From positions 1 to 36,095 of IMG/VR virus record IMGVR_UViG_3300024999_000243: 36,095 nucleotides of DNA; one strand, written 5' to 3'. Numbering within the stretch: position 1 is the first letter of the stretch; the number at the start of each line of letters is the position of its first letter. The notes under the pieces are model-generated. The model did no database searches. It worked only from the letters and a program-made list of their open reading frames with translations, and was not told where the DNA came from. Both the position numbers and the translations under genes were made by a program. The stretch comes from a virus. Below, piece after piece: positions 1 through 34,666 of the stretch.

Positions 1-87
1 CGTTTCCTGTACCTCACTGGCGGCGCCGCCGGGACCGCGGCAGCCTATACGGCCGGGCGGTTCCTGATCGAAATCTGGGGCGTATAA
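1..87 (+). CDS. 3' end of a truncated gene, function unknown
   Basis: The window opens inside a reading frame that runs from base 1 to a TAA at 85-87, giving 28 visible C-terminal residues. They are rich in Gly and Ala and end in a hydrophobic FLIEIWGV. The piece is too short to assign. Being upstream of the adaptor gene on the same strand, it probably belongs to the head or connector module, which is inference from position only. A terminator-like hairpin follows it directly, which supports this being the true gene end rather than a chance frame. Confidence 0.5.
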   Translation, partial: RFLYLTGGAAGTAAAYTAGRFLIEIWGV

Positions 88-100
88 GCAAGTCTCCTCG

Positions 101-128
101 AGGGGAGGGTGCAGAGTCCCTCCCTTTC
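101..128 (+). terminator. Probable intrinsic terminator
   Basis: GGGAGGG at 103-109 pairs with CCCTCCC at 118-124 around an 8-base loop, and TTTC follows. The stem is strong but the U-tract is short, so termination may be partial. It separates the truncated first gene from the small gene at 169. Confidence 0.6.
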
Positions 129-168
129 ATTGAGCCTTGCAAACACCTCTTAAAGGGAGACTTGAAAA

Positions 169-438
169 ATGTACATGAAACGAATGCTGGAGATTGGTCA
201 GGCAAGCAATGGATACGTCATTGAGTGCCGGGTGCCGATCAAGCCGAAGGAGCAAAAAGGCAACAAGAGTTTGTGCGAGTGCTACCCAGGCTCCAGCGAG
301 AAACAGTACATCGCCAAGGACGCCAAAGAGGTCGTAGCGATCATTGAGAAACTGATGCCGATGCTGGACGACAAGTTTACCTCGGAAGAGGAATTTGACG
401 CCGCATTCACTGAAGCTGCAAAAACCAAGGAGAAATAA
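169..438 (+). CDS. Small conserved-type phage protein, unknown function
   Basis: This 89-residue protein starts at an ATG nine bases after a GGGAG ribosome-binding site (155-159). A second in-frame ATG lies two codons later. The sequence is soluble-looking, with a basic middle (residues 25-33), a short CEC motif near residue 36 and a helical acidic/basic C-terminal half. No catalytic motif is visible. It ends one base before the next gene starts, so the two are probably translated together. Its place between head and connector genes suggests a virion assembly or accessory role, but that is inference. Confidence 0.7.
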   Translation: MYMKRMLEIGQASNGYVIECRVPIKPKEQKGNKSLCECYPGSSEKQYIAKDAKEVVAIIEKLMPMLDDKFTSEEEFDAAFTEAAKTKEK

Positions 439-2980: not shown

Positions 2981-4101
2981 TGTCCTTACTCACTCCAGCA
3001 CATCTTTCCCCTGAACGGTGGTATGATGGATCTGATGCATCTACCAGGACTATTGATACCGGAATTAGTGTGCTCGGAGACAAATCGGTAAATGCCGAGG
3101 CGGCAACGCAGTCAGTAGGTGCAAGCCAGCCGACAGTCGCTGCCGCCTCGCTCAATGGCTTGGATACGATCAGTTGCGCCAATCAATGGTTTGAAATACC
3201 GGACCTGTCGCATCTTACAGAGGCATCGATTTTCTTACTGGTGAAAGTCGATGCTGATCCTCCGATAGAGGCACGGTCAGGACTATGGAAATTTGGCAAC
3301 GACCCTACCACCAAAAATACGCATTACCCGTATACAGATAGCAATGTCTATGAGGAATTTGGGTCGACTGTAAGAAAAAATACAGGCAATCCAACCCCTT
3401 CGCTTGCAGATTGGCGACTGTATTGTGTCGAGGCCAAAGACGGATTGTGGCGATCCAGTTTTGATGACGTAGATTTCTTCACCGCATCCAGCAATACATT
3501 GGGATGGAGCACTACGCATTACCTCGGCAGAAGCCTGGAGGAGTACTACCTATGGGGAAAATGGGCCGAATGCGTAATTCTTGGTAGAATACCTACAGTC
3601 GACGACAGATCAGCTTTGGTCGCATCGCTTCTTTGGAAATATGGATTACAGGGAAATCTCGCCGCCGGACATCCATATGAGTCAGCAGCTCCTACGACAA
3701 CGGGAGGCGGTATCGTCATGCCTCCCATGCTTATTTCCGGCGTGGCGGTAAACCCTATTGTCGCTATTGGGAATGTTGCTGCCCAGCCCATGATGATTTC
3801 AGGAAAGGTATGGAACGTTGGCCTCGGCGACGTTGTCGCCCCCAGGATGCTTATTACTGGCGAAGCGTTGAATGCGGTAGTAGGGAAAGGCGGCGTTTCG
3901 ATGCTGCCGAAAGTATCAGGGGAGGCATATAACCCTGTCGGATCTGTGGGGGAAGTTGTGATGCAGCATCCAAAAATATCTGGACTGGCCGTCAATACAA
4001 AGATCGCATCCGCAAATGTATCTGCTTTAGGAAAAGTGTGGGGAACCGCAGATAACCCGAAGGCGCTAGAAATAATTCGTTTCCGCCGGTGGGTTCAATG
4101 A
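2980..4101 (+). CDS. Probable tail fibre/receptor-binding protein with lectin-like domain and 20-residue repeats
   Basis: The 373-residue product has two parts. Residues about 1-230 look like a concanavalin/LamG-type sandwich: a LNGLDTISCANQWFEIP strand pair, EASIFLLVKVD, a DWRLYCVEAKDGLWRSSFDD pair and a HYLGRSLEEYYLWGKWAECVI closing strand. Residues about 243-360 hold about six degenerate repeats of roughly 20 residues with a core like P-M-L-I-S-G-x-A-x-N. Such architecture suits adsorption proteins that bind surface sugars. By eye the gene is less GC-rich than its flanks. It overlaps the next gene by an ATGA. Substrate and receptor are unknown. Confidence 0.6.
   Translation: MSLLTPAHLSPERWYDGSDASTRTIDTGISVLGDKSVNAEAATQSVGASQPTVAAASLNGLDTISCANQWFEIPDLSHLTEASIFLLVKVDADPPIEARSGLWKFGNDPTTKNTHYPYTDSNVYEEFGSTVRKNTGNPTPSLADWRLYCVEAKDGLWRSSFDDVDFFTASSNTLGWSTTHYLGRSLEEYYLWGKWAECVILGRIPTVDDRSALVASLLWKYGLQGNLAAGHPYESAAPTTTGGGIVMPPMLISGVAVNPIVAIGNVAAQPMMISGKVWNVGLGDVVAPRMLITGEALNAVVGKGGVSMLPKVSGEAYNPVGSVGEVVMQHPKISGLAVNTKIASANVSALGKVWGTADNPKALEIIRFRRWVQ
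3715..4050 (+). repeat. Six degenerate about 20-codon tandem repeats inside the fibre-like gene
   Basis: The translated repeats run IVMPPMLISGVAVNP, AQPMMISGKVWNV, APRMLITGEALNAV, SMLPKVSGEAYNPV, MQHPKISGLAVNT and SALGKVWGTADNP. Each is separated by a Gly/Val-rich turn (IGNV, LGDV, KGGV, VGEV, SANV). The period is about 19-22 residues, about 60 bases. DNA identity between copies is low, so these are old protein repeats and not recent DNA duplications. Confidence 0.7.
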
Positions 4102-6206
4102 TCCCGCCAAAAATTGTCCTAGCCAATAACTCGCAAGCGGAAGCCGATTTCATCGGCCTGGCACTCAGTCAACTTGCAATTCTCGAACGACTTTTATCGT
4201 TCCACAATGTCAACAGTAATTATCGAAGAGTAGATCCCTACCCGGGAGTGCTTCTTGAGGCATGGAAAACGTTTTCCATTCGAGAGGCGAAAATTACGGT
4301 AGATGAAGATGCCTACAACGAGTATCTGGAGCGCCCTGAGAAGAAGCGCTATGAGAGAAAACTTGACAATAGGTTCTTCGTTAGAATAGGCGCTCCGACC
4401 GATATGGTTTTCGATGAACGCGGCCACCTCGTTTCCGACACCACTCGGTATTACTGGATTGATTTTGCAGCAAGACCTGATGCTCCGGTAATTGCAGACC
4501 AGATAGCTTTTCATGATCCTGGAGAGCGGACGCTTGAGTTCGAGAGCGGCGAAGGGTACTTCTATGCAGTATCTCGGAACGTTTCACACGATACATTTTC
4601 CCAAGCTGTGACCTTTACCGACTATATGTATCACAATTACGTCAGGTCTTTTGATCTGGCGAAAGATATTGATGGCCTTATAACGCAGAGGTTTGTTGCT
4701 GGGTATCACTTTCTAGCAACCGGGAACAATATAATTTACACCCCGACGGTTGTCCCTCCATCTGGAGGGGATTTTGATGAGTACGAAATATGTAAGAATC
4801 CTCCGAACAGGTTTTTTGTTGACCTCGAGTCGAGGACAATGTGCTGGTATCACGTTCTCCAGGAATGGAAACTGCTGTCGGTAGTAACTGACACCGAGTC
4901 AACAGGCTCGATATCCGGAGATGTCGTAGGTGCAGATTTCACAGAGAATGTTTTAAATCTAGACCATATCTGTATCTTTTCTTTCACTGGGAATGCTGCC
5001 GACGCACAAGTCACTGAGACCGCCGGCGATTCTCTATTAGAGCCAATAGGCATTGCTTCCGATATTGAATACCTTGATAGGACTTCGCTGAAGATTATCA
5101 CTTCCTATGAGTCTGTACCTGTCAGGTTAAACTGTACATTAGGGGCATCTCCCGTAGTGTCCTCAGTGGACACTCTCGGAGCCATGACAACTGCTCTCGC
5201 AGTGGCCGACGGATATGAGTGGTACCAGTCAGCTACAGTGGTAATAGAGTCCGGAGATGAACCTGATATCTTGGCGGAAGACACCGCTGTAGTGAATAGT
5301 TATGACGTGAACGAATGCTTGCCGCTCCCTGCTGTGTGTAATCAGGAGATAGAAATAATAGAAGATGGGTGGGAGTATTCAGAAACAAAATCAGCATGGG
5401 AAGAAGCTATCGTTAATTTGTCCATATACGGAATGACCCCTTATGGCTACACAGAGGTAGTGCTTGGCAGGGAAAACGGGACCTACGCCGAAAATGTCTA
5501 CAGCATCCTGCATTATTGCTATCCAGTGCTAGGAGGAAACTGTAACGAAAGTGGGTACTCAACGGCAGCGGCAAGGTCGGTGCAGGGGTATGCCTCCGGT
5601 AGTTTCGGGTCGATTTGCGATGTTTCCATACCATGTCAAAACGTTACCATTCACAGAGAAACCAATGACAAGGTAATAAACACGTCAATTTTAAGGATAA
5701 TCCAAGGCCCTGGTGGTGAAGGGGTTCTTTCCGAGGATTTAGCGCACTGGAACGACTCGACCCCACTTCAAACTGACGATCCTCCTTTTGATATTTGTTC
5801 CGAAGTATACCCCGCCGGCTACACAATGGAAGATCCGGCCAACTGGCTTCCGCTCGGCAATTTTCCCATATCACTCGATGACTTGGTTTTTAATTACGCA
5901 TCCGGCAATGGGACATATAGCAGTAATGTAGTTTATAATTACGACCAAACTGTAACGGTAGACAAGTGCTATGTAAAAGATTGTCCTGATGAATTCACTG
6001 CGTCCGGGCTAATTTCAATCGTGATCCTTGATGATCGGTGGAGCAGGGGGAGCCAAGGGCAGGTTATTGCGGTGAAGTCGAGCACCCCGGGGGAGACGGC
6101 GATATATCACAACGGGGTAGATAAAATGCAAGCCATTCTCGAAGCGTTGACTAGAGATAGTCTCTTAGGAGATGGAGAAAATCTTTACGACATTGGGCTT
6201 ATTTAA
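4098..6206 (+). CDS. Large virion protein of unknown family, probable adsorption/tail protein
   Basis: I chose the ATG at 4098, which makes an ATGA overlap with the previous stop and has GGTGGG just upstream. A GTG at 4089 is possible but poorly placed. The product is about 702 residues. Residues 1-90 look helical and the rest is a long series of beta strands with several Cys clusters (for example CLPLPAVC and CYVKDC). I recognise no enzymatic motif or named domain. Lower GC than the flanks, and position between a lectin-like protein and tail proteins, fit a variable receptor-contact protein. The C-terminal stretch, with NGVDKMQAILEALTRDSLLG, is helical and may be an attachment or trimerisation end. 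Confidence 0.6.
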   Translation: MIPPKIVLANNSQAEADFIGLALSQLAILERLLSFHNVNSNYRRVDPYPGVLLEAWKTFSIREAKITVDEDAYNEYLERPEKKRYERKLDNRFFVRIGAPTDMVFDERGHLVSDTTRYYWIDFAARPDAPVIADQIAFHDPGERTLEFESGEGYFYAVSRNVSHDTFSQAVTFTDYMYHNYVRSFDLAKDIDGLITQRFVAGYHFLATGNNIIYTPTVVPPSGGDFDEYEICKNPPNRFFVDLESRTMCWYHVLQEWKLLSVVTDTESTGSISGDVVGADFTENVLNLDHICIFSFTGNAADAQVTETAGDSLLEPIGIASDIEYLDRTSLKIITSYESVPVRLNCTLGASPVVSSVDTLGAMTTALAVADGYEWYQSATVVIESGDEPDILAEDTAVVNSYDVNECLPLPAVCNQEIEIIEDGWEYSETKSAWEEAIVNLSIYGMTPYGYTEVVLGRENGTYAENVYSILHYCYPVLGGNCNESGYSTAAARSVQGYASGSFGSICDVSIPCQNVTIHRETNDKVINTSILRIIQGPGGEGVLSEDLAHWNDSTPLQTDDPPFDICSEVYPAGYTMEDPANWLPLGNFPISLDDLVFNYASGNGTYSSNVVYNYDQTVTVDKCYVKDCPDEFTASGLISIVILDDRWSRGSQGQVIAVKSSTPGETAIYHNGVDKMQAILEALTRDSLLGDGENLYDIGLI

Positions 6207-7583: not shown

Positions 7584-8750
7584 ATGGCCGAGCTTGCGAG
7601 ATATAAGAGACCAGAGACTGAGGTGCTGCCCGGAGTAGGTCGTCCGGTAGTAAGTAAACCTGTCGCGCTGGACACAGGGGCTGAGTATGGCCCGCCTGTA
7701 GCTCCGTTCGTTTCTGGAGGCATGAGAGCACCGAGTGCGATTTCCGAGGCTGCTACACCAGATCCTCCCCAAGCTATCGGGATGCCTCGCCGCCAAGTGG
7801 TCCCAACTCAAGTAGGCTCCGACGGAGGCATGATCAGCGTCAACCTTACGCCGGAAGACCGGCAGCTTAAAGGTAACCTTCAGCAGATTGATGGGATGCT
7901 GGCGAGTGGAGTACAACCTACAGCCGAGCAGGCGCAACGCATTCAAGGCATTCGTCGACAGGCAGGGTTCCTCAGAGGAGGCACTGACCGAGTTCCGGTA
8001 GGACCTGACGGACTGCCGCTGGGGCAAAGCGGCGGAACGCCAACTTGGGCAGATATGCAGAGGCAGTGGCAAGGGCGCCAAGGCGATGGTATGCAGGGGA
8101 TGCGAGCAGCGCAGAACGCCTCGAGAATACTGGCCGGTGGAGGGGGAGGAGGCGCGGCCGGCATCCCTGCGCAGATCACCCCGTCCGGGCCAAGCAGGAC
8201 ATGGTCTGAGGCCAAGTCAAACGACAGAGGGGTTATTGCCAATGCAGCTGCCCGGAGGGATTACAACAACAGTATAAAATTCGGGATAGCTGCCGATAAG
8301 AACCAGATTGATCGGGAAACGATCGCCACACAGGCCGGCACTGCCCGATTAGGCTTCCGTAACCAGCAAGAAATAGCCGCTGCCGGGGACGCTATCCAGA
8401 CCGAACGGAATAAACTTCTCTCTGAGGAGTTAGGGATGCGCAAGGTAGGGGTTGAGGCACAGGCCGAGTTGGACCTCGCAAACGCCAAGGTAGCTGGCGT
8501 GCCAAAAATCACCCCGCATTTCGGCGAAATCGAGTCTGTCACCAAGGACGGCATTACCCAGACTCCGTATGTCGTTGTGCCTGACGGCAAGGGTGGGTTT
8601 AGGCAAGTAACTCCAACACAAGGCGGCACGGCGACTCCGGCAGTTAGCTTGTCCGCCGCCCAGAAAGCAAAGGCCGTGGCGTATGCAAAGGCAAACCCGA
8701 AAGAAGACAGAGCCAGTATCCTCGCTAAAATAATGGCAGGAGATATTTAA
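7584..8750 (+). CDS. Probable internal virion (ejection) protein, Gly/Pro/Ala-rich
   Basis: This 388-residue product begins with a disordered Pro/Gly/Val-rich stretch (about 1-80). A segment with VNLTPEDRQLKGNLQQIDGML and a Gln/Gly-rich part follow, including a GGGGGGAAG run near residue 190. Helices lie at about 225-305 (NNSIKFGIAADKNQIDRE and a QAELDLANAKV helix). A small beta part with TQTPYVVVPDGKGGFRQVTP comes next, then a C-terminal helical tail with PKEDRASILAKIMAGDI. Low-complexity, helical proteins directly upstream of the giant ejection protein are usual in podoviruses (compare T7 gp14/gp15 by position). The stop shares a base with the next start (TAATG). Confidence 0.55.
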   Translation: MAELARYKRPETEVLPGVGRPVVSKPVALDTGAEYGPPVAPFVSGGMRAPSAISEAATPDPPQAIGMPRRQVVPTQVGSDGGMISVNLTPEDRQLKGNLQQIDGMLASGVQPTAEQAQRIQGIRRQAGFLRGGTDRVPVGPDGLPLGQSGGTPTWADMQRQWQGRQGDGMQGMRAAQNASRILAGGGGGGAAGIPAQITPSGPSRTWSEAKSNDRGVIANAAARRDYNNSIKFGIAADKNQIDRETIATQAGTARLGFRNQQEIAAAGDAIQTERNKLLSEELGMRKVGVEAQAELDLANAKVAGVPKITPHFGEIESVTKDGITQTPYVVVPDGKGGFRQVTPTQGGTATPAVSLSAAQKAKAVAYAKANPKEDRASILAKIMAGDI

Positions 8751-11700
8751 TGGATGAGTTCGACCAGTTGTTCGGCACCCAGCCGGATGAGTTCGATCAG
8801 CTTTTTGGCACTGCTCCGGCGCAAGTACCTCCTCCAGAAGGAGGCCTCAAAGCCTCCTTAATGTCAACAGCAGGACAGTATATAAAAGGCGCCGGCCAGG
8901 CTGCCGCGGACTTTATTCCTGGTGTCAGCCAAGCCAACCCGGTCAGCACCTACGGCCAGTCGGTAATCGACGCCAACCCGACGGCGATCAACAAACTGAG
9001 CGATGTCATCGACAAGCCGGTCACCGCGGTCAAGGAGGCGGTAGGTAATGTCGCTCCGTCCGTTGCCGGCGCCCTCGGCATCCGCGCTCTTGGGCAGGCA
9101 GTGACCTCGGCAGCGCCGTATGCCACCGCGATTAACCCACTTCTTGGCGGACTTACCGCTGTAGCAGGTCAAGCTATCTCCTGGGGCGGTCCGATTGCCA
9201 TGGCAGCCTTGCCCTCCTATGGCGGGATCAGGGGCAAGCAGATTGAGAAGGACCCAGACGCCACCTCCTCGGGAACGGATAAGGCTATAGCCGCTCTCGG
9301 CGCTGCCACCGTCGGCGCGATCGAGCAGAAGTTCGGCCCGCAGGACTGGGCGACAAAACTCGTCACGAAAGAAGGCCGCGACCAGCTTGCCAAGATGATG
9401 GCAAGCACCACTCTGAAGGGCGCAGTAGTGAAAGGCGCCGGCAAAGGTGCCCTTGTCGAAGGGGCGGAAGAACTCGTCCAGAACCCAGTCGAGCAGCTCG
9501 CTGCTTACGACAACCCGCTGACCAAAGAGAGCCTTGAGGAGACCGCGCTCGGCGGCGTTATGGGCGCCATAGGCGGAGGTGTTGCCGGCGGAGCGTTCGG
9601 CGGTGGGGCACGGCGGAGTCCACAGGCTATTGACCGTATTCAAGAGCAGACCCTAAATAATTTACTGAAAGACACCAACGTCTCCGTCACCGACGGCAAG
9701 GCCTCGTTCGTGGTCGGAGATCAGGAGGTCTCAGTCGACCCGATTGAGTTGGGCGAGCGGCTTACTGCCGGCGAGACTCTTGCCACCATGCCCCAGGACT
9801 TTTTGTTTGGGGAGCGCGGAGCGTTTGTCAAGCCTGATCTTACTCCGCAAGTGGTCGACCGAGGGGAAGACCCGCAGGGAATTATCGACCAACTCAACAT
9901 GGAGAACGATGTCATTGCCGCCAGAAAACTCGGTATTCGGCAGGACATCAACGCCGCAGAGAACCGCGCCCGGCAGCTCTCGGGCATCCCAGTTGTAGAC
10001 GACCCCGTTCAGCAGGCGGAACTTGACTGGCAGGCACAGTACGCCTCCGCTCTCGAAGCCAACAGGCAAGGCATCAGGCAGGACCCGAAGGCAGCCAAGG
10101 CCAGGTTCGACGCACTGTTCCCGACAACGCCGGGAGACAAAGAGGCCGCAGCTGCTAAGGCGAAAGAATACAAGGAAGCCGTCAGCAGTCTTAGAAAGAA
10201 AGTCGCCGAGCCAGCTCCGTTTGCCGAGACTCCAACAGTCGAGCAGGCGGCCAAGTCTACAGCCGTTGAGCAGCCATTCGGCGGTGCACTGGCCCCTGAG
10301 CCACCTTCGCAAGAGATAACTTATCCGTCAGGTCGACCGTTCGCCAACGAGCGAGCCATGGCGACGTATCTCAAATCAAAGAAAGAAGACCCTGCACTGT
10401 TCGAGGCGAAAGTTGTCGAGGGCGGAGTTGTGGCAGTACGGAAACCAGATGCTCCCCAAGCCTCTACCGTCGAGTCGTCATCCGGAAACGGCGTCGCGGC
10501 AAGCTCACCCAGGGGAGCCACTTCTTTAGGAGAGACAAATGAAAACGAGAACACGCGAACGGTACAACCGAGAGTCTCGAACAAGGCCGCGGAGGATGGC
10601 GGAAGAGAGAGCGCACCTGGAGCAGATCAGGAAGTTTCAGGAGGTGGATTTGTCACTGACGCACAGTTACGAGGGCGGGGAGTCGAGGATGGAGGCGTTC
10701 GGTCAGACAGTGGACGACAATCACAGCTTCAGTTGGATGGAGAGCAAGAATCACAACAGCGAGAACCACAATTACCCGGAGAGTTAGATAGGCAAACCAA
10801 CCTGGAGGTTTCGACCCCGGGCGCGGGGGAGGCAACTCCCCCTGCTTCTACGAAGGTCTCCTTCGTCAACCGTCAGGCCTACGACAACTACCTCGCTACG
10901 AACAACCTCAAGCCTGAGGGGGTAAGCACCTCCGTCTCGCCTGAAGGCGTGATCACGGTCGACCCGGCCGCGCCGGTGTTTACTGCGGCGACGAAAGGCG
11001 CAGCCTTGGGGTACATCAGCAGGAACAAACTGCAGGCGACGCATGAGGTCACACCACGACCTGACGGCGGAGCGGACGTAGTCCTCAAAGTGCCTGAGAC
11101 CTATGAATCCCTCCAGGCAAAAAACGCACAAGGCGAAGTGCAGGAAATCACTGCCACGCAGCTTTTCTCTTCGATCGCCAAGGCGAAGAACCCGGTAACG
11201 AGAAACCTCGGCAAGCTCCTGCAGCAGTTCACGCCGCAGTCAAAACTCGCAACTATCAAAGTCGTCATCGACCCGAATGCAAAATCTGCATCTTACCGGC
11301 CGTCGAACCGGACGGTAACGGTCAAGGACCTGAACCAGTTCGAGACCTCGCTGCATGAGATCGTCCACTCCGTCACCGTCGCCGAACTTGCTGCGACCCC
11401 TGGTATGCAGAAACGCCTCAAGCAGGTCATGCTGCAGGCTCGTAGGGAAGCGATCAAGCAAGGGCTGATCTCTGAGAAGCAGATGAAGGAGATCGAGGCT
11501 GCAGGGGGCAGCAAGGCCTTCAAGAACAAGTTCCCGGCCGGCACCCTCTCAGGTGTTGAGAATATCGCTTACGCTTTCGCCAACGAGAAAGAGTTCCTCG
11601 CCCAGGCGTTCTCCTCACCGCAGGTCCAGCAGTTCCTCGAGTCGGTGCAGATTAACAACGGCGGCAAGCTGCGCTCGGCCTGGGACGCTCTCGTTGAGAA

Positions 11701-14700
11701 GGTTATGCAGGTCCTCGGTATCCCGGCAGGGCAGCAGACCGCGTTCAGCGAGACGCTGAAAATCGCCGCGCAGTTGGCGGGGCAGGAGATGTCGATCCCG
11801 CAAAGCGGGGAAGTCTTCGAATCCCTCGACACCGCCCTCAAGGCCGGCCACGACCGGGTGATGCAGGCTGCCCAGGCTCTGGCGAATCCGAAGGCGAAAC
11901 TGCACGATTTCTACCTGCAGCACGCGGACAAATGGCTCGGAGTGCTCCCACCCTCGCACATCGCGCAGACCTTTGGCAAGAAGATCAGTCAGCTTGGCGA
12001 CCTCGATCGCCACTCCAACCAGTTGCAGTCGACCAGGACCAAGCTCTCGGACGACGCCTTCGATGTCTATGGCCAGGCAAAAAAAGTCGCTGAGAAGGGC
12101 GCAGGGGTCGACGCCTTCAATGATGCCTTGCTGAAAGGCACCTACTTCCAGATGCTGCCTTGGGCCGATCAGTACGGACAGGACTGGGTCAGTGGCAAGA
12201 CCAAGGAAGAGCAGATCAGGAACGCTCAGGTTGCGTGGGAGAAAGCCGGGATGGCAAAGTCCACTGGCAAGCATTATCTGCAGGCCTGGCGAGAAGCAAA
12301 CGTCTCATGGAAAAAACTTGACAAGGCCTCGCAGACCCAGTTCATGGCGGTCATCGGCAGCCTGAAAGACATCCGACAGCGTGAGCGGGACAACCTGCTG
12401 GCCTTCATCGAAGTCGCCTCGAAAGACGACCCGGACCTCCGGGCCAAACTCATGTCGCGCTTCGACGCCACCTTCTCCAACATCAAGGGTATCTACGCCC
12501 CGCTCTCCCGCTACGGCAAGTTCTGGCTGGAGTATCAGGATAAGGACGGCATCAAGCATGTTGAGTATTTCGAGACGACCGGCGACCGGGACACCGGCAA
12601 GCTGGCGGCGATCGCTGAAGGGGCCAAGTCCGAGACTGTTTCCGAAGGCGTGAAAGACGAGTCGGTGCGCGGCGAGACCGTCATCCCGAACGAGTTGATC
12701 AATCAGGTCTTTGCCAGGGTGCGGGAGAACTACCTCGCAGACCTAGACCCGGACGACACCGCGGCCATTGCCGACGCTGAGAGCCGCGCCCAGGACCTCG
12801 TCTCCGACATTAACCAGACCTTCCTGCGCTGGCTGCCGGACACCGCGGCCCTGAAGAACTCGATCCATCGTAAGAGCACCAAGGGTGCCAGCACCGACAT
12901 GCTGCGCAGCTACCTCGACTACATGCTCCGCCACTCCTCGTCCATCGCCTGGATGGAGGTCGGCCGGAAGATTGACGCGGACATTCAGAGTTTTGCCAAA
13001 GAGAATCAGGAGTTGAAGAAAAAGGGCGGGGTCGACCTGACCATGCGCGGACACCTCCTGAACAACACCCGCAAGTGGCTGCAGGCCATAAAGCAGGAGA
13101 AGGTCAACCCGATTGCCTCGTTTGCCGGCAAGTGGAGCACCGCCTACTACATGACCTCGCCGTCTACCTTCCTGGTGCAGTTGACCCAGTTGCCCGCCCT
13201 CACGCTGCCGAACCTCTCCTCGCGGTTTGGCTGGGGCAAGGCCTCGTCCGCGCTTGGCAAAGGCTTCCAACAGGCGTTCAGTAAGGACTTCAGCAAGGAC
13301 GCCATGCTGGCCGATGCGAAAGTCAACGCGACCTATCTCGCCCTGCACAGGCGAGTCAGCGAGGCCGAGCGCACCGACGCAAGACCCGTAGGCTCCGAGT
13401 GGCACACGCCTGCCGAGAAGGCAGCGATGGTCAACGAGCTGAACTATAAACAGAAGCAACTGCTCATGCTCCGCGAGGCGGTCGCCATGAACCTGCTAGA
13501 CATCTCCGCGGTTCACGAGGCCCAGGCCATTGCCTTTGGCAAGGAGGACACCGTCGCCGGCCGGGCCATGAAGTGGGCGATGCTGCCCATGCAGTACGGC
13601 GAGCTTGGCAGCCGGAAAGCCGCGGCGCTTGCGACCTTTGACCTCGCCACCAAGAACGGCAAGGACTTCTTCACCGCCATGCAGGAGATCAAGAAGACGG
13701 TCGATGAGACCCTCTACTCCTATGCCAAGGAAGACAAGGGCTACCTGATGCAGGGGTCGATCCCTCGGGTGCTCCTGCAGTTCCAGACCTATCGAATCAA
13801 GACCGCTTTGAGACTCGGCATCCTGCTCAGACAGTCGCTGAATAAGTCCGAGGACCCCAAGGTCCGCGAGTCCGCTTGGAAAGAGTTCAAGGGTATTGCC
13901 GGCATGTCGGCCCTCCTCGGCGGAGCCAATGGTCTCGTCTTCGGCTCGCTCCTTTTCGGTGTTGCGAACCTCTTCGGCGGCGATGACGACGAGCCGTGGG
14001 ATGCGAAACTCGCCATGACCAACTGGCTGAAAGAGACCTTCGGCGAGACTGTCGGCGACGCTGCGATGTTCGGCCTGCCCTCCCTCTTAGGTGTCAACGT
14101 CTCCGAGCGCATCGGCATGAGCAACATCTTCGGCACCCAGACCTCCCCGCCCTCCGGGGCGCACGGCGCAGCCCTCGCCGCTTGGTACGCCGGTAACCTG
14201 CTCGGCCCTGGCTACTCGGTCGCCCAGTCGTGGGTCAAAGGCTACGACCAGATGATGAACAAGGGGAACTACATGCGGGGGCTTGAGGAGGCCACTCCAA
14301 AGCCGATCAGGGACGCCCTGAAGGCCTACCGCGTCGGCACCGAGGGACTGAAGGACGGGCAGGGTAAGCGGCTGCTGGACGATGCTGCGATCGGCCCTGA
14401 CGAGATCCTGATGGTCGGCTTAGGCTTTACTCCCTCTGAGATCGCCGCGGCCCAGACTGCGAACTTTACGCTGAACCAGATGAAGACTGAGGTCAGTGAG
14501 CGCCGCGGCCGACTGATCCGCGACGCGGCCAACGCCATTATCGAAGGCGGAGACACGACCGAGGCTCTCGAATCGATCAGGAGTTACAATGCGAGGATGC
14601 CGGGGAGAGCCATCTCCGGCCGAGACCTCCGCCCAGTCGTGAGAAGACTGGTACTCGGAGACCTCGGGGAGACGGACAGGACTGACCTAATGATGGCCGA

Positions 14701-14737
14701 TCAGTTTGGGATTCCTACTTATACGGAAAACAGGTAA
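8750..14737 (+). CDS. Giant ejection-type virion protein with HExxH metallopeptidase-like motif
   Basis: This 1,995-residue protein has a mosaic layout typical of podoviral ejection proteins and large polyvalent proteins. Residues 2-21 hold two copies of DEFDQLFGT (an 11-codon direct repeat). Residues about 90-290 contain Gly/Ala-rich, weakly hydrophobic segments such as GGVMGAIGGGVAGGAFGGGA that could contact membrane. Three related modules of about 40 residues lie at about 525-566, 701-741 and 740-782; each starts around an F-x-N/A-x3-A-x3-YL pattern. A HEIVH motif sits at 869-873, with a likely third zinc ligand E948 in NEKEFLAQAF. The rest is mostly helical, with a hydrophobic YYMTSPSTFLVQLTQLPAL stretch near 1465. 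No lytic transglycosylase motif is visible. Residues about 575-705 are low complexity, where another frame is open. Function (DNA ejection conduit, host-wall processing) is inferred from architecture. Confidence 0.7.
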   Translation: MDEFDQLFGTQPDEFDQLFGTAPAQVPPPEGGLKASLMSTAGQYIKGAGQAAADFIPGVSQANPVSTYGQSVIDANPTAINKLSDVIDKPVTAVKEAVGNVAPSVAGALGIRALGQAVTSAAPYATAINPLLGGLTAVAGQAISWGGPIAMAALPSYGGIRGKQIEKDPDATSSGTDKAIAALGAATVGAIEQKFGPQDWATKLVTKEGRDQLAKMMASTTLKGAVVKGAGKGALVEGAEELVQNPVEQLAAYDNPLTKESLEETALGGVMGAIGGGVAGGAFGGGARRSPQAIDRIQEQTLNNLLKDTNVSVTDGKASFVVGDQEVSVDPIELGERLTAGETLATMPQDFLFGERGAFVKPDLTPQVVDRGEDPQGIIDQLNMENDVIAARKLGIRQDINAAENRARQLSGIPVVDDPVQQAELDWQAQYASALEANRQGIRQDPKAAKARFDALFPTTPGDKEAAAAKAKEYKEAVSSLRKKVAEPAPFAETPTVEQAAKSTAVEQPFGGALAPEPPSQEITYPSGRPFANERAMATYLKSKKEDPALFEAKVVEGGVVAVRKPDAPQASTVESSSGNGVAASSPRGATSLGETNENENTRTVQPRVSNKAAEDGGRESAPGADQEVSGGGFVTDAQLRGRGVEDGGVRSDSGRQSQLQLDGEQESQQREPQLPGELDRQTNLEVSTPGAGEATPPASTKVSFVNRQAYDNYLATNNLKPEGVSTSVSPEGVITVDPAAPVFTAATKGAALGYISRNKLQATHEVTPRPDGGADVVLKVPETYESLQAKNAQGEVQEITATQLFSSIAKAKNPVTRNLGKLLQQFTPQSKLATIKVVIDPNAKSASYRPSNRTVTVKDLNQFETSLHEIVHSVTVAELAATPGMQKRLKQVMLQARREAIKQGLISEKQMKEIEAAGGSKAFKNKFPAGTLSGVENIAYAFANEKEFLAQAFSSPQVQQFLESVQINNGGKLRSAWDALVEKVMQVLGIPAGQQTAFSETLKIAAQLAGQEMSIPQSGEVFESLDTALKAGHDRVMQAAQALANPKAKLHDFYLQHADKWLGVLPPSHIAQTFGKKISQLGDLDRHSNQLQSTRTKLSDDAFDVYGQAKKVAEKGAGVDAFNDALLKGTYFQMLPWADQYGQDWVSGKTKEEQIRNAQVAWEKAGMAKSTGKHYLQAWREANVSWKKLDKASQTQFMAVIGSLKDIRQRERDNLLAFIEVASKDDPDLRAKLMSRFDATFSNIKGIYAPLSRYGKFWLEYQDKDGIKHVEYFETTGDRDTGKLAAIAEGAKSETVSEGVKDESVRGETVIPNELINQVFARVRENYLADLDPDDTAAIADAESRAQDLVSDINQTFLRWLPDTAALKNSIHRKSTKGASTDMLRSYLDYMLRHSSSIAWMEVGRKIDADIQSFAKENQELKKKGGVDLTMRGHLLNNTRKWLQAIKQEKVNPIASFAGKWSTAYYMTSPSTFLVQLTQLPALTLPNLSSRFGWGKASSALGKGFQQAFSKDFSKDAMLADAKVNATYLALHRRVSEAERTDARPVGSEWHTPAEKAAMVNELNYKQKQLLMLREAVAMNLLDISAVHEAQAIAFGKEDTVAGRAMKWAMLPMQYGELGSRKAAALATFDLATKNGKDFFTAMQEIKKTVDETLYSYAKEDKGYLMQGSIPRVLLQFQTYRIKTALRLGILLRQSLNKSEDPKVRESAWKEFKGIAGMSALLGGANGLVFGSLLFGVANLFGGDDDEPWDAKLAMTNWLKETFGETVGDAAMFGLPSLLGVNVSERIGMSNIFGTQTSPPSGAHGAALAAWYAGNLLGPGYSVAQSWVKGYDQMMNKGNYMRGLEEATPKPIRDALKAYRVGTEGLKDGQGKRLLDDAAIGPDEILMVGLGFTPSEIAAAQTANFTLNQMKTEVSERRGRLIRDAANAIIEGGDTTEALESIRSYNARMPGRAISGRDLRPVVRRLVLGDLGETDRTDLMMADQFGIPTYTENR
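10539..10787 (+). CDS. Nested out-of-frame ORF inside the giant virion gene (candidate overlapping gene)
   Basis: An 82-codon frame, shifted relative to the host gene, begins at ATG 10539 with a textbook AGGAG at 10528-10532, six bases upstream. The product is basic in its first 40 residues (MKTRTRERYNRESRTRPRR) and Glu/His/Asn/Ser-rich later, ending NHNSENHNYPES. Over the same bases the host frame encodes low-complexity sequence rich in Gly, Gln, Glu and Ser, as often seen when a second frame is the constrained one. The end resembles SENHQYEEA at the C-terminus of the 6218-7057 gene. No function can be given. It may equally be a chance frame. Confidence 0.45.
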   Translation: MKTRTRERYNRESRTRPRRMAEERAHLEQIRKFQEVDLSLTHSYEGGESRMEAFGQTVDDNHSFSWMESKNHNSENHNYPES

Positions 14738-17119: not shown

Positions 17120-17851
17120 TCACCTCCCGTTCGCTTCAAGAAACAACTGTTTATCCTGCAGTGCAGCCGCGCCCACGGCGATCTTGTCGACGTTGAGGCA
17201 GTCCACAATGGAGAAATATTGGTCGTACAAATGCAGTCCGTCAGAGAACGCGATGATGGAGCCGTCGACTACCGGGAACTCATCCTTCAGGCTGTCCAGC
17301 ACCATCTCCTTCAGAAGCTGCAGCCCTCCGAGGTTCTCAGGCAGTCCGGCGTAGAGGTCCCAGGACCGGAAGTAGACCGTCATGTTCAGCCTGCTATTGA
17401 CAACCTTGAACGAGATACTCCGCAGACATGGAGGATCGTCAAGGAACGTAGTTACGACATCGCCAATGCAGACCGTCGCCTGATTGGTATTGCCTTTCGA
17501 GTCCTTGAGCAGTTGGATTATTCTGGCTAACTGCTGGGTGATGAACTCGCCGTAGGTGTAGACCTCGTTGTCGGCCTTCACATCGCAAGCGATGTACCTG
17601 GCGAAGTAGGCCTCGATCTTCTCATCGTCAGTCGGCGCCGGGATGGACGGCGGCAGGATGGGCGCAAGCGGGCGGCTGCCGGGGGAAGTTATCTCGAGCA
17701 TTACTTTGTCGAGCTGCTTCCTGATCTGCCCTTGGTAGCTCCCACCCTTAACCAGGAAGTCGTAGCCGTTCTTCACGCACAGCCACATAACTTCCCGCCA
17801 CGCGCTGTCAATGGTTGCTGCTTTGACAAAGTTCGCTTCTTCGATTATCAT
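17120..17851 (-). CDS. thyA: Thymidylate synthase family enzyme (ThyA-like)
   Basis: The 243-residue protein carries the family's key motifs. The catalytic Cys is C142 in DPPCLRSISF. Phosphate and nucleotide contacts lie in YFRSWDLYAGLPENLGGLQLL (Arg162, Asp165, Asn173). The nucleotide-binding HLY motif is H207-x-Y209 in DGLHLYDQYF. Asn173 is the residue that favours dUMP over dCMP; dCMP hydroxymethylases carry Asp there. So dUMP to dTMP with methylene-tetrahydrofolate is the likely reaction. The protein is shorter than E. coli ThyA and resembles the archaeal/phage type. It is in the coupled leftward operon (ATGA overlap with the next upstream gene) and would feed phage DNA synthesis. Confidence 0.8.
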   Translation of the reverse strand: MIIEEANFVKAATIDSAWREVMWLCVKNGYDFLVKGGSYQGQIRKQLDKVMLEITSPGSRPLAPILPPSIPAPTDDEKIEAYFARYIACDVKADNEVYTYGEFITQQLARIIQLLKDSKGNTNQATVCIGDVVTTFLDDPPCLRSISFKVVNSRLNMTVYFRSWDLYAGLPENLGGLQLLKEMVLDSLKDEFPVVDGSIIAFSDGLHLYDQYFSIVDCLNVDKIAVGAAALQDKQLFLEANGR

Positions 17852-19566: not shown

Positions 19567-19773
19567 TTATACGTACGTCCACCTAGCTACGTAGCTTGCC
19601 GAGCCTGAACAGGTTCCGTCGTCGTTAAGCACCGCCCAGTACATACAAACCCCTCTACACCTAAGCGTACCAGACACCGGACTTATCTTCGCAAACCTGT
19701 ACCTGACCTCGCCGTCGAAGTCTTCCGTAGCTACTACAATGGCACCGAATCGTTTAAAAAATTTCCGCCACAT
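19567..19773 (-). CDS. Small hypothetical protein
   Basis: I prefer the ATG at 19773, which sits at a normal distance from AAGGAGGGAGT. A GTG at 19779 would be too close to it. The 68-residue product has a basic N-terminus (MWRKFFKRFG) followed by strands such as AIVVATEDFDGEVRYRFAKI and CMYWAVLNDDGTCSG. The ten-codon overlap with the upstream gene is in a different frame. Function unknown. Confidence 0.5.
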   Translation of the reverse strand: MWRKFFKRFGAIVVATEDFDGEVRYRFAKISPVSGTLRCRGVCMYWAVLNDDGTCSGSASYVARWTYV

Positions 19774-19957
19774 CTTCACTCCCTCCTTGAACTTGGGTTA
19801 TCTCCTCACAAATCGTATCGACTATCCTCCTGACCTTCTCGTTCTCCGGCCGGTTCTCATACGGCGTGGTGGCGTGGGCAAAGTTTTTGCCGATTACGAG
19901 GTAAAACACACCTCCGTCAATGATCACTTTTCTTCTTACTGCGTCTTCGCCTTTCAT
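19754..19957 (-). CDS. Small hypothetical protein coupled to the methyltransferase remnant
   Basis: The ATG at 19957 overlaps the stop of the ancestral methyltransferase frame (ATGA) and is preceded by AAGGAGGTCGG. The 67-residue product has a first strand pair (KVIIDGGVFYLVIGKNFA), then a helix with ENEKVRRIVDTICEEITQV. No family recognised. The intact ATGA overlap shows that the broken methyltransferase still holds its original 3' junction with this gene. Confidence 0.6.
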   Translation of the reverse strand: MKGEDAVRRKVIIDGGVFYLVIGKNFAHATTPYENRPENEKVRRIVDTICEEITQVQGGSEDVAEIF

Positions 19958-20627
19958 ATCTGACCGACCTCCTTGATCCGCTTAACAGCGACTGCGAACA
20001 TCTCAGGAACCAGTTCCATCCCAATGAACTCTCGATTCAGCTTTCGGCAAACGTCACTGTTGGCACGCTGCATCCTACGCAAAAGGCGCGCGCGCCTACA
20101 CCGACGAAGGCGACACAGTGTTGGACAACTGTATGGGGAGTGGCACTGCGAGGGTATCGGTCGGTAGCCCCCTTGGCACTGTTCGTCTGCGTGTGTCTGC
20201 CGTAAACGTCAGTGGTCTTCTTCGGGTTCGCGTAAACCGCATTCATCGGCTTATGCCCTTGCGTCTTTATCGGGTTGTACTTAGGCAGTTTCTTATAGAA
20301 CACCAGAATGTTCTCATGCGCCTTCATCGGAGCTTTCTTTGCGTTGAGATGTCCAGTCGCAGTGCCCTTCTCCCAAATCCACTCGTATCGCAGCATAGGC
20401 AAGTTGCTCGCTCCTAGAACTTTGTCGAACGGAGTTTGCGCGTTGAGGACTATGGCTCCTCGGTCCTTGATTACCCGGCAGTAGTGCTTCCACAGCGAGG
20501 GTATGTCGATAACCACGTCCCATCTGCAGCGAGTAGTCCCAAATGGCAGGTCGGCGCAGATCATATCGACGCTCTTATCAGGTATTTGGTGCAGCAAGTC
20601 CAGGCAGTCGCCTTGCAATAATTTCAT
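19954..20627 (-). pseudogene. DNA methyltransferase gene with an internally inverted segment
   Basis: Reading leftward from an ATG at 20627 (ATGA overlap with the primase gene), codons 1-161 match a phage N6-adenine/N4-cytosine methyltransferase: MKLLQGDCLDLL, then ADLPFGTTRCRWD (the catalytic DPPY-type motif, here DLPF), then RYEWIWEKGTATGHLNAKKAP, APMKAHENILVFYK and TDRYPRS. After YPRS the frame turns to nonsense and stops at 20037. The missing pieces are on the plus strand between 20047 and 20156: TVGTLHPTQK (20059-20085), and YTDEGDTVLDNC with MGSGTARV (20097-20156), the SAM-binding motif. The true C-terminus is back on the minus strand as NREFIGMEL to KEVGQI (20037-19954). About 22 bases also appear lost near 20085-20096. 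So the gene cannot make the full enzyme in this state. Confidence 0.75.
20085..20096. repeat. Perfect 12-bp GC palindrome at the centre of the inverted segment
   Basis: GGCGCGCGCGCC is its own reverse complement. It replaces about 11 codons expected between HPTQK and YTDEGD of the methyltransferase and lies close to the midpoint of the inverted block (about 20038-20156). It may mark a breakpoint, a repair scar or an assembly join. Confidence 0.7.
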
Positions 20628-23497
20628 ACCTCAAACTCCCCTTTCTCCCGAGCCATCTCCTCCGCCACCAGTCGGAACTCCTCGGCGGTGCGCCCAAGGG
20701 CATCACACGACATGTCGATCTCCCACACTGGTGTCAGCGCCCCTCCCCATGTGGTGCCCGCTCCCAGGACCTTCCTCTTGTTAGGGTTTACTAGAGCCTT
20801 CATATTAAGCAGGTCGTTCTTGGTTCTAGAATACGAGGCGTGTTTCCTGCCAAGCCAAGACTGCAGGGCGGTGCGGGACAGGTACAGCAGGCGGTCCTCG
20901 ATCTCGTAGCGGACGACGAGCGGGCCGCGGGGGGCCTCGATCACGGTACAGACGCCACGGGGATTGACCAGCGAACCTTTTACCAGAAGACGGTTGTTCG
21001 CATGATCGTCCAGGAACTGGCCGAGGATGTCGACGGCGGTCGAAGTCAGGTCTACCTTGTCCTCCCGCATCTCAAAGATTTTACCACAGACCCAGTTCAA
21101 AACCGGCATCACCTCGAACTGGATTAAACCGAGCGATTTAGCCACCAGCCCGCCAAAGATCGCCGCCGATACTACCGCGCCCCAGAACCGCTCCTCGCCT
21201 TTCAACTGAGCCATGGCCTCGACCTTGGCCCGGATATTGTCGATCCCGGGCTTGATCTTCTTCTCGTTCTTCACCAGCCATTTCACATACTCCTCGCCGG
21301 CATGGCCGTAGTTCTCAGTGACCGTCCAGTAGAGGGCGGTGGTCACGTCCTCCTGAAAGCTGTCCACGCGGTGGACCTGGTACTCGAACACCCGGTTTAT
21401 CTCGGCGCTGGCGTCGGCCTTGACTCCGGAGAGTTTGTCGATTAGCGACGAGTTTGAGGTGGTGATGGCGATGGTGTTCCACTCGTTTATGCCGGTTCGT
21501 TCCGTACCGTTCTTGGTGCTGGCTACCTTGACCCGGCCTTGGGTAACCTGATAGGCGAAGTCAGAAATGGATATCCCTTCGCTGTTGGTCACCTCATCAA
21601 CAGTCAGTGGGAGATTGCCATAGACCCCGAGGCGGTTCAAGGTGCCGAGCGAGGTGTCACCACGGAGCATCATGAGTTTTTTGTGCGCCCCGTAGATTGA
21701 CTGGATCATGGTCGTGATAAGTGATTTTCCAGTGCCGGACTCGCCATGCAGGGAGACAATAGCCCCGCTGTACCCGGTGAAGCGCATGAGCGGGGCACCG
21801 AGCCCAGTGAGTAAGGCGAAAGCGAACTGCTCCATCCCTGGGGCGCCGAGCAACTTGGTAGCATCGCTCCATTTATACAGGCTGCCCTCGGAGTGGTAGG
21901 CCTCGGCCGCGGCCGGGACGTTCCGGGCAAGACTGGCTTCGTCAACCGAGCCGTCGGCGTTGTAGACCTTACGGCCTAAGACAAACATCGGCGAGCCGTT
22001 ACGGGCCGTCTTCCAGCCCATCTGGCAGAGCAGCTCCTGCATCTTCCGCTCCCGCTGGAGCTTGGCCTGGTACGATTCTAAATATGCAACCATTATCTTT
22101 TTCTCCTTGTTCCCCACAACTTTTATATGATTGTCCGCAAGCGTGGTCATCAGCATCTTCGGGTCGTTGACCAAGGACGACCGCACAGTACACTCGAGAT
22201 CCCCCTCAAACGGCAAGTAGTGGCGGATGGTCATGACCTCGTAGCCGAGCGAATGGTCGTAGGCGAGACGTTCTAGGAAGAGGTCCATGTCATAAAACTT
22301 TACCCAATGGCCGTCCTCGGACCAGTACAGGCCGTCTTCCGCCCTCTTGAAATTCGATGGGGCCGAGGTGTCTTTCTTTTCTTCTGGGACCGGCCGACCG
22401 AGGACGATCGGCGATTTAATCTTGCCGTTGGCCTTGCAGCCGATGCACATCTCAGGGTTGTCAGCACCAAACTTGACACAGGTGGTAGGGCCGACGCCGG
22501 CTGCCCGCCATTGGTCCATCTTGGCGCTAGTCTTGCCGAAGTCATAGTCAGGGTGCCCGGCTGACCAGGCTTGCGCTACTTCGTCTCCGTTCTCGCAGTA
22601 GGCGAGCAGTCCCAGGCAGGCGTACCAGTGAGGTTCAGCGATGTTGCCGCCGGACTCCTTCATCTCGCGCAACTGGGCGCAGAGGTCGGCTACCTGATAA
22701 GCGTCACTGGGAGGCCCTGAAGGCTCTAGGCCGTCGTAGAACTCGGAGTTGATGTCAGTACTAGGCTTCGGTGCGGCGAGCGTGTGGTGGGCAACCTGAG
22801 CCTTTCTTGCGGCTTTATTTAACGCCTCGGCAAAATCCAGGAACCGAATCGGCTCCATGTCACGCAGTATTACAACGGGCTTATTAGGACGGTTAGGCTT
22901 GCGGTTGGTAGTGCCTGGGGCACGCAGGACTGAGGCTGAGTCAGAGGTACGAGAGGAGTCCCCGCCGAGTTTCGGAGCCAGCTTGGCTACGACCTGCTTC
23001 AGGATAAAGGCGACGGAGCGCCACTTCTCGGCGTCGATGGCTTCGTCCAAGAGCCACTGCGCGTAGAGGCCGTTGCCTGAGTTAATTACCGCAGGAAACG
23101 GCAGGCCTGAGTCGGCGATAAATTGCTTGAGCGCGGCTGCGCCTTCTTGCTGGTTCTTCAGTGGCCACTTCTCACCGCAGTCGATGTCGAGGAAGAAGTT
23201 CTTGATGAGAAGCGCGTTGGCCTGGCTGCGCTCTTTCATGCGGAGCGCCTTGTCGTGGCCGTAGGGCAGGGCCTTGTTATGGGCCTGGGCGGTGGTTATC
23301 TTGGCCGGGTCGTAGGTAGCCTGGGCTATGTAGCAGGTCGACCCTGACTGATCGAGTATGCCAAGCTGGGCTTGGGCGTCGGCTAATGATGGGTAGAAGA
23401 AATGCTTAAACCCTCCGGCGGACAGTAACTGCGCGACGCAGTACAGCCCTTCGGACGGGAGGAGTTTGGACAGGAAACCGCCGTCATCAGGAAACAT
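20624..23497 (-). CDS. Primase-helicase: AEP-type primase fused to DUF927-like ATPase
   Basis: This 957-residue protein joins two replication activities. The N-terminal third resembles archaeo-eukaryotic primases: FLDIDCG at 102-108 (two metal-binding Asp), SGNGLYAQW at 140-148, and a third acidic residue D186 before LRAPGTTNRK. Residues about 265-365 end in a Cys cluster (C340, C351, C354) like the PriCT module. The C-terminal half is a DUF927-type ring helicase: GYSGAIVSLHGESGTGKS (Walker A at 585-592), LTVDE (Walker B at 631-635) and an NSS sensor-like motif near 680. A winged-helix-like tail follows (YLSRTALQSWLGRKH). It would prime and unwind DNA for the DNA polymerase A at the right end. 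GGAGGTCCG precedes the ATG. Confidence 0.85.
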   Translation of the reverse strand: MFPDDGGFLSKLLPSEGLYCVAQLLSAGGFKHFFYPSLADAQAQLGILDQSGSTCYIAQATYDPAKITTAQAHNKALPYGHDKALRMKERSQANALLIKNFFLDIDCGEKWPLKNQQEGAAALKQFIADSGLPFPAVINSGNGLYAQWLLDEAIDAEKWRSVAFILKQVVAKLAPKLGGDSSRTSDSASVLRAPGTTNRKPNRPNKPVVILRDMEPIRFLDFAEALNKAARKAQVAHHTLAAPKPSTDINSEFYDGLEPSGPPSDAYQVADLCAQLREMKESGGNIAEPHWYACLGLLAYCENGDEVAQAWSAGHPDYDFGKTSAKMDQWRAAGVGPTTCVKFGADNPEMCIGCKANGKIKSPIVLGRPVPEEKKDTSAPSNFKRAEDGLYWSEDGHWVKFYDMDLFLERLAYDHSLGYEVMTIRHYLPFEGDLECTVRSSLVNDPKMLMTTLADNHIKVVGNKEKKIMVAYLESYQAKLQRERKMQELLCQMGWKTARNGSPMFVLGRKVYNADGSVDEASLARNVPAAAEAYHSEGSLYKWSDATKLLGAPGMEQFAFALLTGLGAPLMRFTGYSGAIVSLHGESGTGKSLITTMIQSIYGAHKKLMMLRGDTSLGTLNRLGVYGNLPLTVDEVTNSEGISISDFAYQVTQGRVKVASTKNGTERTGINEWNTIAITTSNSSLIDKLSGVKADASAEINRVFEYQVHRVDSFQEDVTTALYWTVTENYGHAGEEYVKWLVKNEKKIKPGIDNIRAKVEAMAQLKGEERFWGAVVSAAIFGGLVAKSLGLIQFEVMPVLNWVCGKIFEMREDKVDLTSTAVDILGQFLDDHANNRLLVKGSLVNPRGVCTVIEAPRGPLVVRYEIEDRLLYLSRTALQSWLGRKHASYSRTKNDLLNMKALVNPNKRKVLGAGTTWGGALTPVWEIDMSCDALGRTAEEFRLVAEEMAREKGEFEV

Positions 23498-33661: not shown

Positions 33662-34603
33662 TCAAGGTACGAGTTTAGTTCGGACTGTATGTAGGAGAAA
33701 ACCTTCCCAAAATACTCTATCTGGTGCCTCCGGAAGCTGAGAGGTTGCACTGATGGCGGTTACTTCATCAATTATGTTGTCAAGTTCTTCCGCCACCTGC
33801 GCGTATCTGAGCTGCCCAGTTTTCACAGCGACCAAATGCGTTGCTTCTGGACGAGGGAAGGTTATGGTATTACTCTGCAGCAACTCTTTTACTTGATAGG
33901 CTGCCCGAAGGGCGTGGCTGACAGCTTTCCAGTCGACTCCTTCGTCCCTTGCGGCTGCTCTGGCCCGCTCTCCGTACTTATCGTAGTAGTTCTGCACAAC
34001 TTCCTTGCAATACCCTACCCTGCTTGTTACCTGCAGTCCTTTCCCGCACACATTAAACTGCGGGATACCACCTTTTGAGATTTCATATGTGCAATGCTCC
34101 CCAGTAGGGAACGTCTGCTCATACCCTGCCACATCAGATATGCGAGCATCTGCTGGAGCAGAGTTTAGCCAGTCTATGACAGCCTTGGCTGCGTGCAGCC
34201 TGCTCCCTTTTACCCCATACTTGGCTGCTTGCTTGCGGGCGTAGCCAACGAAGGCTGTCATATTTTTGGTGTAGAATTTACTGCGATGAGAGACGATCTC
34301 CGCCCACAAGTCGGAGGTAGACAACAGCATTTCAGCTGGGGCATGAAGCATGTCCAAAGCGACCGTCTGCCCTTCAAGTGCAAGTTTAACAAACTCGTGG
34401 AGGCAGAACACTTCGGTGTCAGTATCATTAGAAGTATTTTTGCTGGACTCACTGCCGGTACTACTGTACTCAATATGCTTTGGAATCTTCCCCAAAGCGA
34501 CCTGCCGCCATGTGGGGAGGGCCACTCCTTTGATGTCAGTATCGGAGTCTTTCGTGGCGGTGCCATACAAATGCGATCCAAACTTCATCTTGACAATAGT
34601 CAT
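33662..34603 (-). CDS. RlaP-like nucleotidyltransferase
   Basis: The ATG at 34603 follows TTGGAGGGGAGT. The 313-residue protein opens with KFGSHLYGTATKDSDTDIKGV: G9-S10, then D21-x-D23. This GS-x3-YGT-x4-SDxDxxG signature marks the RlaP/YcgL branch of polymerase-beta-like enzymes, associated elsewhere with RNA-repair ligases. Downstream there is ALDMLHAP and a helical C-terminal part (VGYARKQAAKYGVKGSRLHAA, RAAYQVKELLQ). No RNA ligase is in this window. The gene leads the alarmone-hydrolase gene and has a 5' leader with a hairpin. Its substrate is unknown; an RNA-end or tRNA role is inference. Confidence 0.75.
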   Translation of the reverse strand: MTIVKMKFGSHLYGTATKDSDTDIKGVALPTWRQVALGKIPKHIEYSSTGSESSKNTSNDTDTEVFCLHEFVKLALEGQTVALDMLHAPAEMLLSTSDLWAEIVSHRSKFYTKNMTAFVGYARKQAAKYGVKGSRLHAAKAVIDWLNSAPADARISDVAGYEQTFPTGEHCTYEISKGGIPQFNVCGKGLQVTSRVGYCKEVVQNYYDKYGERARAAARDEGVDWKAVSHALRAAYQVKELLQSNTITFPRPEATHLVAVKTGQLRYAQVAEELDNIIDEVTAISATSQLPEAPDRVFWEGFLLHTVRTKLVP

Positions 34604-34624
34604 ACTCCCCTCCAAAAGAAATTC

Positions 34625-34666
34625 CACCCTCGCTTCAGGTCCAGGAGTTTACCGTCCGCGAGGGTG
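34625..34666 (-). promoter_or_regulatory. Leader hairpin before the RlaP-like gene
   Basis: CACCCTCGC (34625-34633) pairs with GCGAGGGTG (34658-34666), a perfect 9-bp stem around a 24-base loop, in the leader just upstream of the GGAGGGG site. No U-tract follows directly (the minus strand continues GAATTTCTTTTGG), so it may be a 5' stabilising or regulatory stem more than a terminator. Confidence 0.45.

Follow-up and report, generated by a model that had tools for sequence, protein, structure and literature searches.

An inverted and shortened catalytic block within a DNA methyltransferase gene of an uncultivated phage

The DNA analysed here (the window) is the whole of a 36,095-base record from an uncultivated phage, G000, and was considered alongside two related records, G001 and G002. 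Structural genes are found on the plus strand up to position 14737, and beyond this point genes for replication and accessory functions are found on the minus strand. The 1995-aa reading frame at 8750–14737 gave no Pfam match, and over its C-terminal half it shares 78% identity with L082, the closest record; at 33662–34627 there is an RlaP or nucleotidyltransferase-like phage protein (PF10127, phrog_388), possibly concerned with RNA repair. The subject of this study is a beta-type N6/N4 DNA methyltransferase gene that spans 20627 to 19954 on the minus strand, with its original TGA stop at 19956–19954. The features of the locus are as follows.

20624–23497, minus strand: DUF927 primase/helicase, the upstream neighbour, 95% identical to that of L082
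20145–20627, minus strand: intact N-terminal two thirds of the methyltransferase, 161 aa (245 bits, profile columns 1–160)
20037–20627, minus strand: present open reading frame, with 161 native residues and 35 from the inverted block, lacking motif I
20144–20150: right junction, with 4–7 nt common to piece B and the flank encoding PRS-V (CACT to CACTGCG)
20050–20144, plus strand: inverted, shortened block inside the methyltransferase gene, 95 nt, its outer limits uncertain by a few nucleotides
20091–20147, plus strand: inverted piece B, RAYTDEGDTVLDNCMGSGT, with the SAM-binding motif I (22–26 bits, columns 186–208)
20084–20097: perfect 14-nt palindrome AGGCGCGCGCGCCT at the joint of pieces A and B, the site of a 22-nt loss
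20056–20085, plus strand: inverted piece A, TVGTLHPTQK (columns 169–177; weak alone at 0.3 bit, collinear)
19954–20049, minus strand: original C-terminus, intact from CRKLNREF (CRKLNREFIGMELVPEMFAVAVKRIKEVGQI and then the stop; columns 209–240, 13 bits)
19754–19957, minus strand: downstream neighbour, 67 aa, function unassigned

Both motif IV, with the sequence DLPFGTT, and the specificity region fall within the N-terminal part of the gene, which ends in ATDRYPRS (S codon at 20147–20145). Its 161 residues share 68% identity with the phage methyltransferases L002–L004, which are relatives of CcrM, MboIIA, and RsrI and belong to the same PF01555 (N6_N4_Mtase) family, but are uninterrupted. ATGA overlaps are present at both ends of the gene, joining its start to the primase stop and its original stop to the start of the next gene. 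Since these borders are intact and in the original frame, the rearranged block is internal to one former gene. On the far side of the block the minus-strand methyltransferase reading picks up again as CRKLNREFIGMEL..., out of frame with the N-terminus. The first-pass annotation placed the end of TDRYPRS at 20145, in agreement with our reading, and the resumption at 20037, which we move to approximately 20049.

The section expected between these two parts lies on the plus strand. Against an alignment profile built from 75 intact relatives, successive parts of the locus match columns 1–160 (minus), 161–177 (plus), 186–208 (plus), and 209–240 (minus), and are therefore collinear once strand is set aside. 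The match to columns 161–177 is weak, and its certain section is 169–177, GTLHPTQK, the expected sequence at the expected place. Piece B, with the residues (R)AYTDEGDTVLDNCMGSGT inside the 95-nt block, matches phage methyltransferases at 85%, and positions 176–195 of the Pfam N6_N4_Mtase model also match the plus strand at 20091–20150 (E 0.004, below cut-off). Furthermore, the real block scored 26.4 bits and the best shuffle 5.6, with none of 3000 dinucleotide-preserving shuffles matching it. This collinearity, together with the shuffles, bears out the original proposal that a catalytic segment with the SAM-binding loop is inverted inside its own gene, and at the level of sequence the inversion is confirmed as a real observation.

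When both strands are translated, pieces A and B occupy different frames of the plus strand. A separate plus-strand gene as the source of these peptides is ruled out by the two frames. The Pfam N6_N4_Mtase model gives the N-terminal part alone 17.5 bits, under the cut-off of 26.7, compared with 101 for the intact protein of L004. Motif IV, the specificity region, and motif I (DxCxGSGT), which define PF01555 members when collinear in one frame, are not so arranged in the window. The methyltransferase gene is a PF01555-family pseudogene in which all the parts are present and motif I is on the opposite strand.

The block is shorter than the section that it replaces. From PRS to the C of the CRK position the distance is 95 nt, compared with 141–162 nt in 72 relatives (150 nt in 69 of them), and the spacing between TQK and YT is 11 nt instead of the 33 nt (11 residues) found in all 72. 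The total loss is 46–55 nt, including a central 22 nt that changes the frame, in keeping with the claim that bases had gone from the left junction and the centre. Because the central loss shifts the frame, A and B are unreadable together in either orientation, and the accompanying prediction, under which simply turning the block round would leave the enzyme defective, also stands. By difference, approximately 12–18 nt (VLRF, perhaps more) would have been lost beside PRS at the right edge and approximately 10–12 nt (TGVA) beside CRK at the left edge.

The exact junctions and the extent of microhomology are approximate, the nearest intact gene being ~72% identical in DNA. At the right junction, the final 4 nt of piece B (CACT) are common to the flank on its right. 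A count of 4 nt presumes the usual Val after PRS and a count of 7 nt presumes Ala after GSGT; the shorter sharing seems the more likely, because the residue after GSGT is usually Thr in relatives (70 of 72). There is no clear repeat at the left edge. At the centre, 4 nt (GCGC) that may be untemplated would complete the palindrome AGGCGCGCGCGCCT, which shares second place for length among the perfect palindromes of the window. The single longer one, the 18-nt ATGGAAAACGTTTTCCAT at 4262–4279, lies within the reading frame 4089–6206, where GC content is locally low.

Different genes, or none, occupy this slot in related phages. In L138–L141 the primase runs straight into the homologue of the downstream gene with no methyltransferase between them, and the ATGA joint is seen in L138. 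In L137 a C5-cytosine methyltransferase (3072–4001; PF00145, 169 bits) fills the slot, again with ATGA overlaps. L082 lacks the methyltransferase, and so supplies no ancestral sequence, and has a different small reading frame in its place. Since relatives may have nothing in the slot, or the C5 type instead, the methyltransferase is an exchangeable accessory gene and, on this comparison of gene content, dispensable. Other members of the methyltransferase group show ordinary decay, with a frameshift in L039 and stops in L045 and L135. In L005 (4196–4930), a 65% identical relative, motif I reads VDTCAGVLSS, compared with LDNCMGSGTT.

The first-pass annotation offered three readings of the locus, a dying gene, a tiny phase-switch, and an artefact, and the dying gene is the best supported. 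The arrangement is likely to be a real mutation, and we consider it probable that a one-off, local, non-programmed rearrangement inactivated an accessory beta-class N6-adenine/N4-cytosine methyltransferase gene. The DNA between the PRS and CRK codons would have been swapped for its own reverse complement, with bases lost at the edges and the centre. The most likely cause would be an accident of replication or break repair in which two strand switches took place at short shared sequences (MMBIR or template switching), and the central GC palindrome may mark a break, a hairpin, or a second slip. Any product that is made would be without the SAM-binding motif I and is expected to be inactive. Loss of the gene would be tolerated, because relatives live without the methyltransferase, and as the remainder of the gene is undamaged the event was probably recent.

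Two types of small inversion provide precedents. In Escherichia coli, inversions that are almost reciprocal, with junction indels of a few tens of bases, were attributed to two template switches at one fork (PMC3161906). The microinversions of human and chimpanzee genomes are 17–33 nt long and mostly precise, with flanking inverted repeats that meet the boundaries, and their proposed origin is either the repair of a break within the segment being inverted or a template switch (PMC8755829). The phage block resembles the latter in being tiny and inverted in place, but it is impure and shortened, and its left edge is without a clear repeat. With the near-reciprocal, non-homologous E. coli inversions it has in common junctions that lose or gain a few tens of bases, apparently with little or no homology: judged against relatives, it is a reverse complement in place, and 46–55 nt in total are absent around near-reciprocal junctions, as in that precedent. 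The E. coli events differ in coming from the lac system of starving cells, whereas here ~95 nt of a phage gene are involved, with a central loss in addition. Overall, the anatomy of the block appears to fit the E. coli template-switch inversions better than the primate microinversions. Weighing against a single-event account, no fewer than three distinct losses must be assigned to a single event or spread over several.

The main rival is that the arrangement arose during library preparation, amplification, or assembly, where a chimeric or low-coverage path inserted an inverted, trimmed piece into a gene that is intact in nature. We regard this as unlikely, though it has to be taken seriously. 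The contig is a singleton: an exact-DNA search of IMG/VR with piece A found neither a match nor a near-identical contig, a gapped-pattern search of the same database, narrow but able to recover the window itself, found no second inverted case, and no near-identical phage record was found in GenBank. Moreover, the gene shows no other decay, and several losses are clustered around a GC-rich palindrome that is difficult to sequence and assemble. On the other hand, an artefact requires two inverted joins ~95 nt apart together with a central loss, all of them kept through the consensus. The remainder of the contig also speaks against generally poor assembly, as the conserved genes of the window, in a comparison limited to those with a match in L082 or L100, align in frame and in a single orientation, with no frame breaks and no other inversions.

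Far less probable is a programmed and reversible intragenic inversion, an inverton-like phase switch that toggles the methyltransferase. Methyltransferase systems are known to switch by recombination, for example through duplicated hsdS genes (PMC7394358), and the block coincides exactly with a catalytic part. Like those phase-variable systems and invertons, the locus has a DNA rearrangement that affects a methyltransferase; unlike them, it has no long inverted repeats, no recombinase that we could find, and no second state that could be restored. Terminal inverted repeats sought at the borders of the block were imperfect or central only, and none at its ends is longer than 4–7 nt. A cognate recombinase was sought in G000, G001, and G002, possibly incomplete records, with no match to the serine type (Resolvase, PF00239) or the tyrosine type (Phage_integrase, PF00589), though an enzyme of the host might serve. 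The frame-changing 22-nt loss, in a block that is 46–55 nt short, leaves no intact enzyme in either orientation, and neither the 96 related loci, among which there are no other inverted copies, nor the IMG/VR pattern search provides a second case. Taken together, these observations disfavour the tiny phase-switch suggested at first.

Equally improbable is that the truncated 196-aa protein, or a plus-strand reading, is a new product under selection. The reading frame does stay open through the block to 20037, and phrog_12862 (149 positions, function unassigned) matches residues 2–119 of the present frame, so that short forms of the N-terminal part may exist. However, motif I is absent from the truncated protein, nothing independent supports the new tail of 35 residues, and on the plus strand A and B are readable only in separate frames. 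Slightly less credible still is that the contig holds a degenerate, locked-off copy of a former methylation switch flipped by a host or phage recombinase.

If the local, non-programmed rearrangement is real, a phage genome has preserved the clean trace of an inversion of under 100 nt accompanied by deletions, legible only through the very conserved motif on the inverted piece. The finding changes no concept, and would illustrate one route by which accessory phage methyltransferases disappear. The slot between the primase and the 67-aa gene, which may be empty or hold an N6/N4 or a C5 methyltransferase, is of mild interest in itself. Elsewhere in the window, a ThyA-like gene (PF00303) is located at 17120–17851, and a search of the window gave no ThyX match; L083, L084, L088, and L138 have ThyX (PF02511) instead, slightly downstream of the primase, and the type of thymidylate synthase thus appears to have been exchanged between the window and its relatives.
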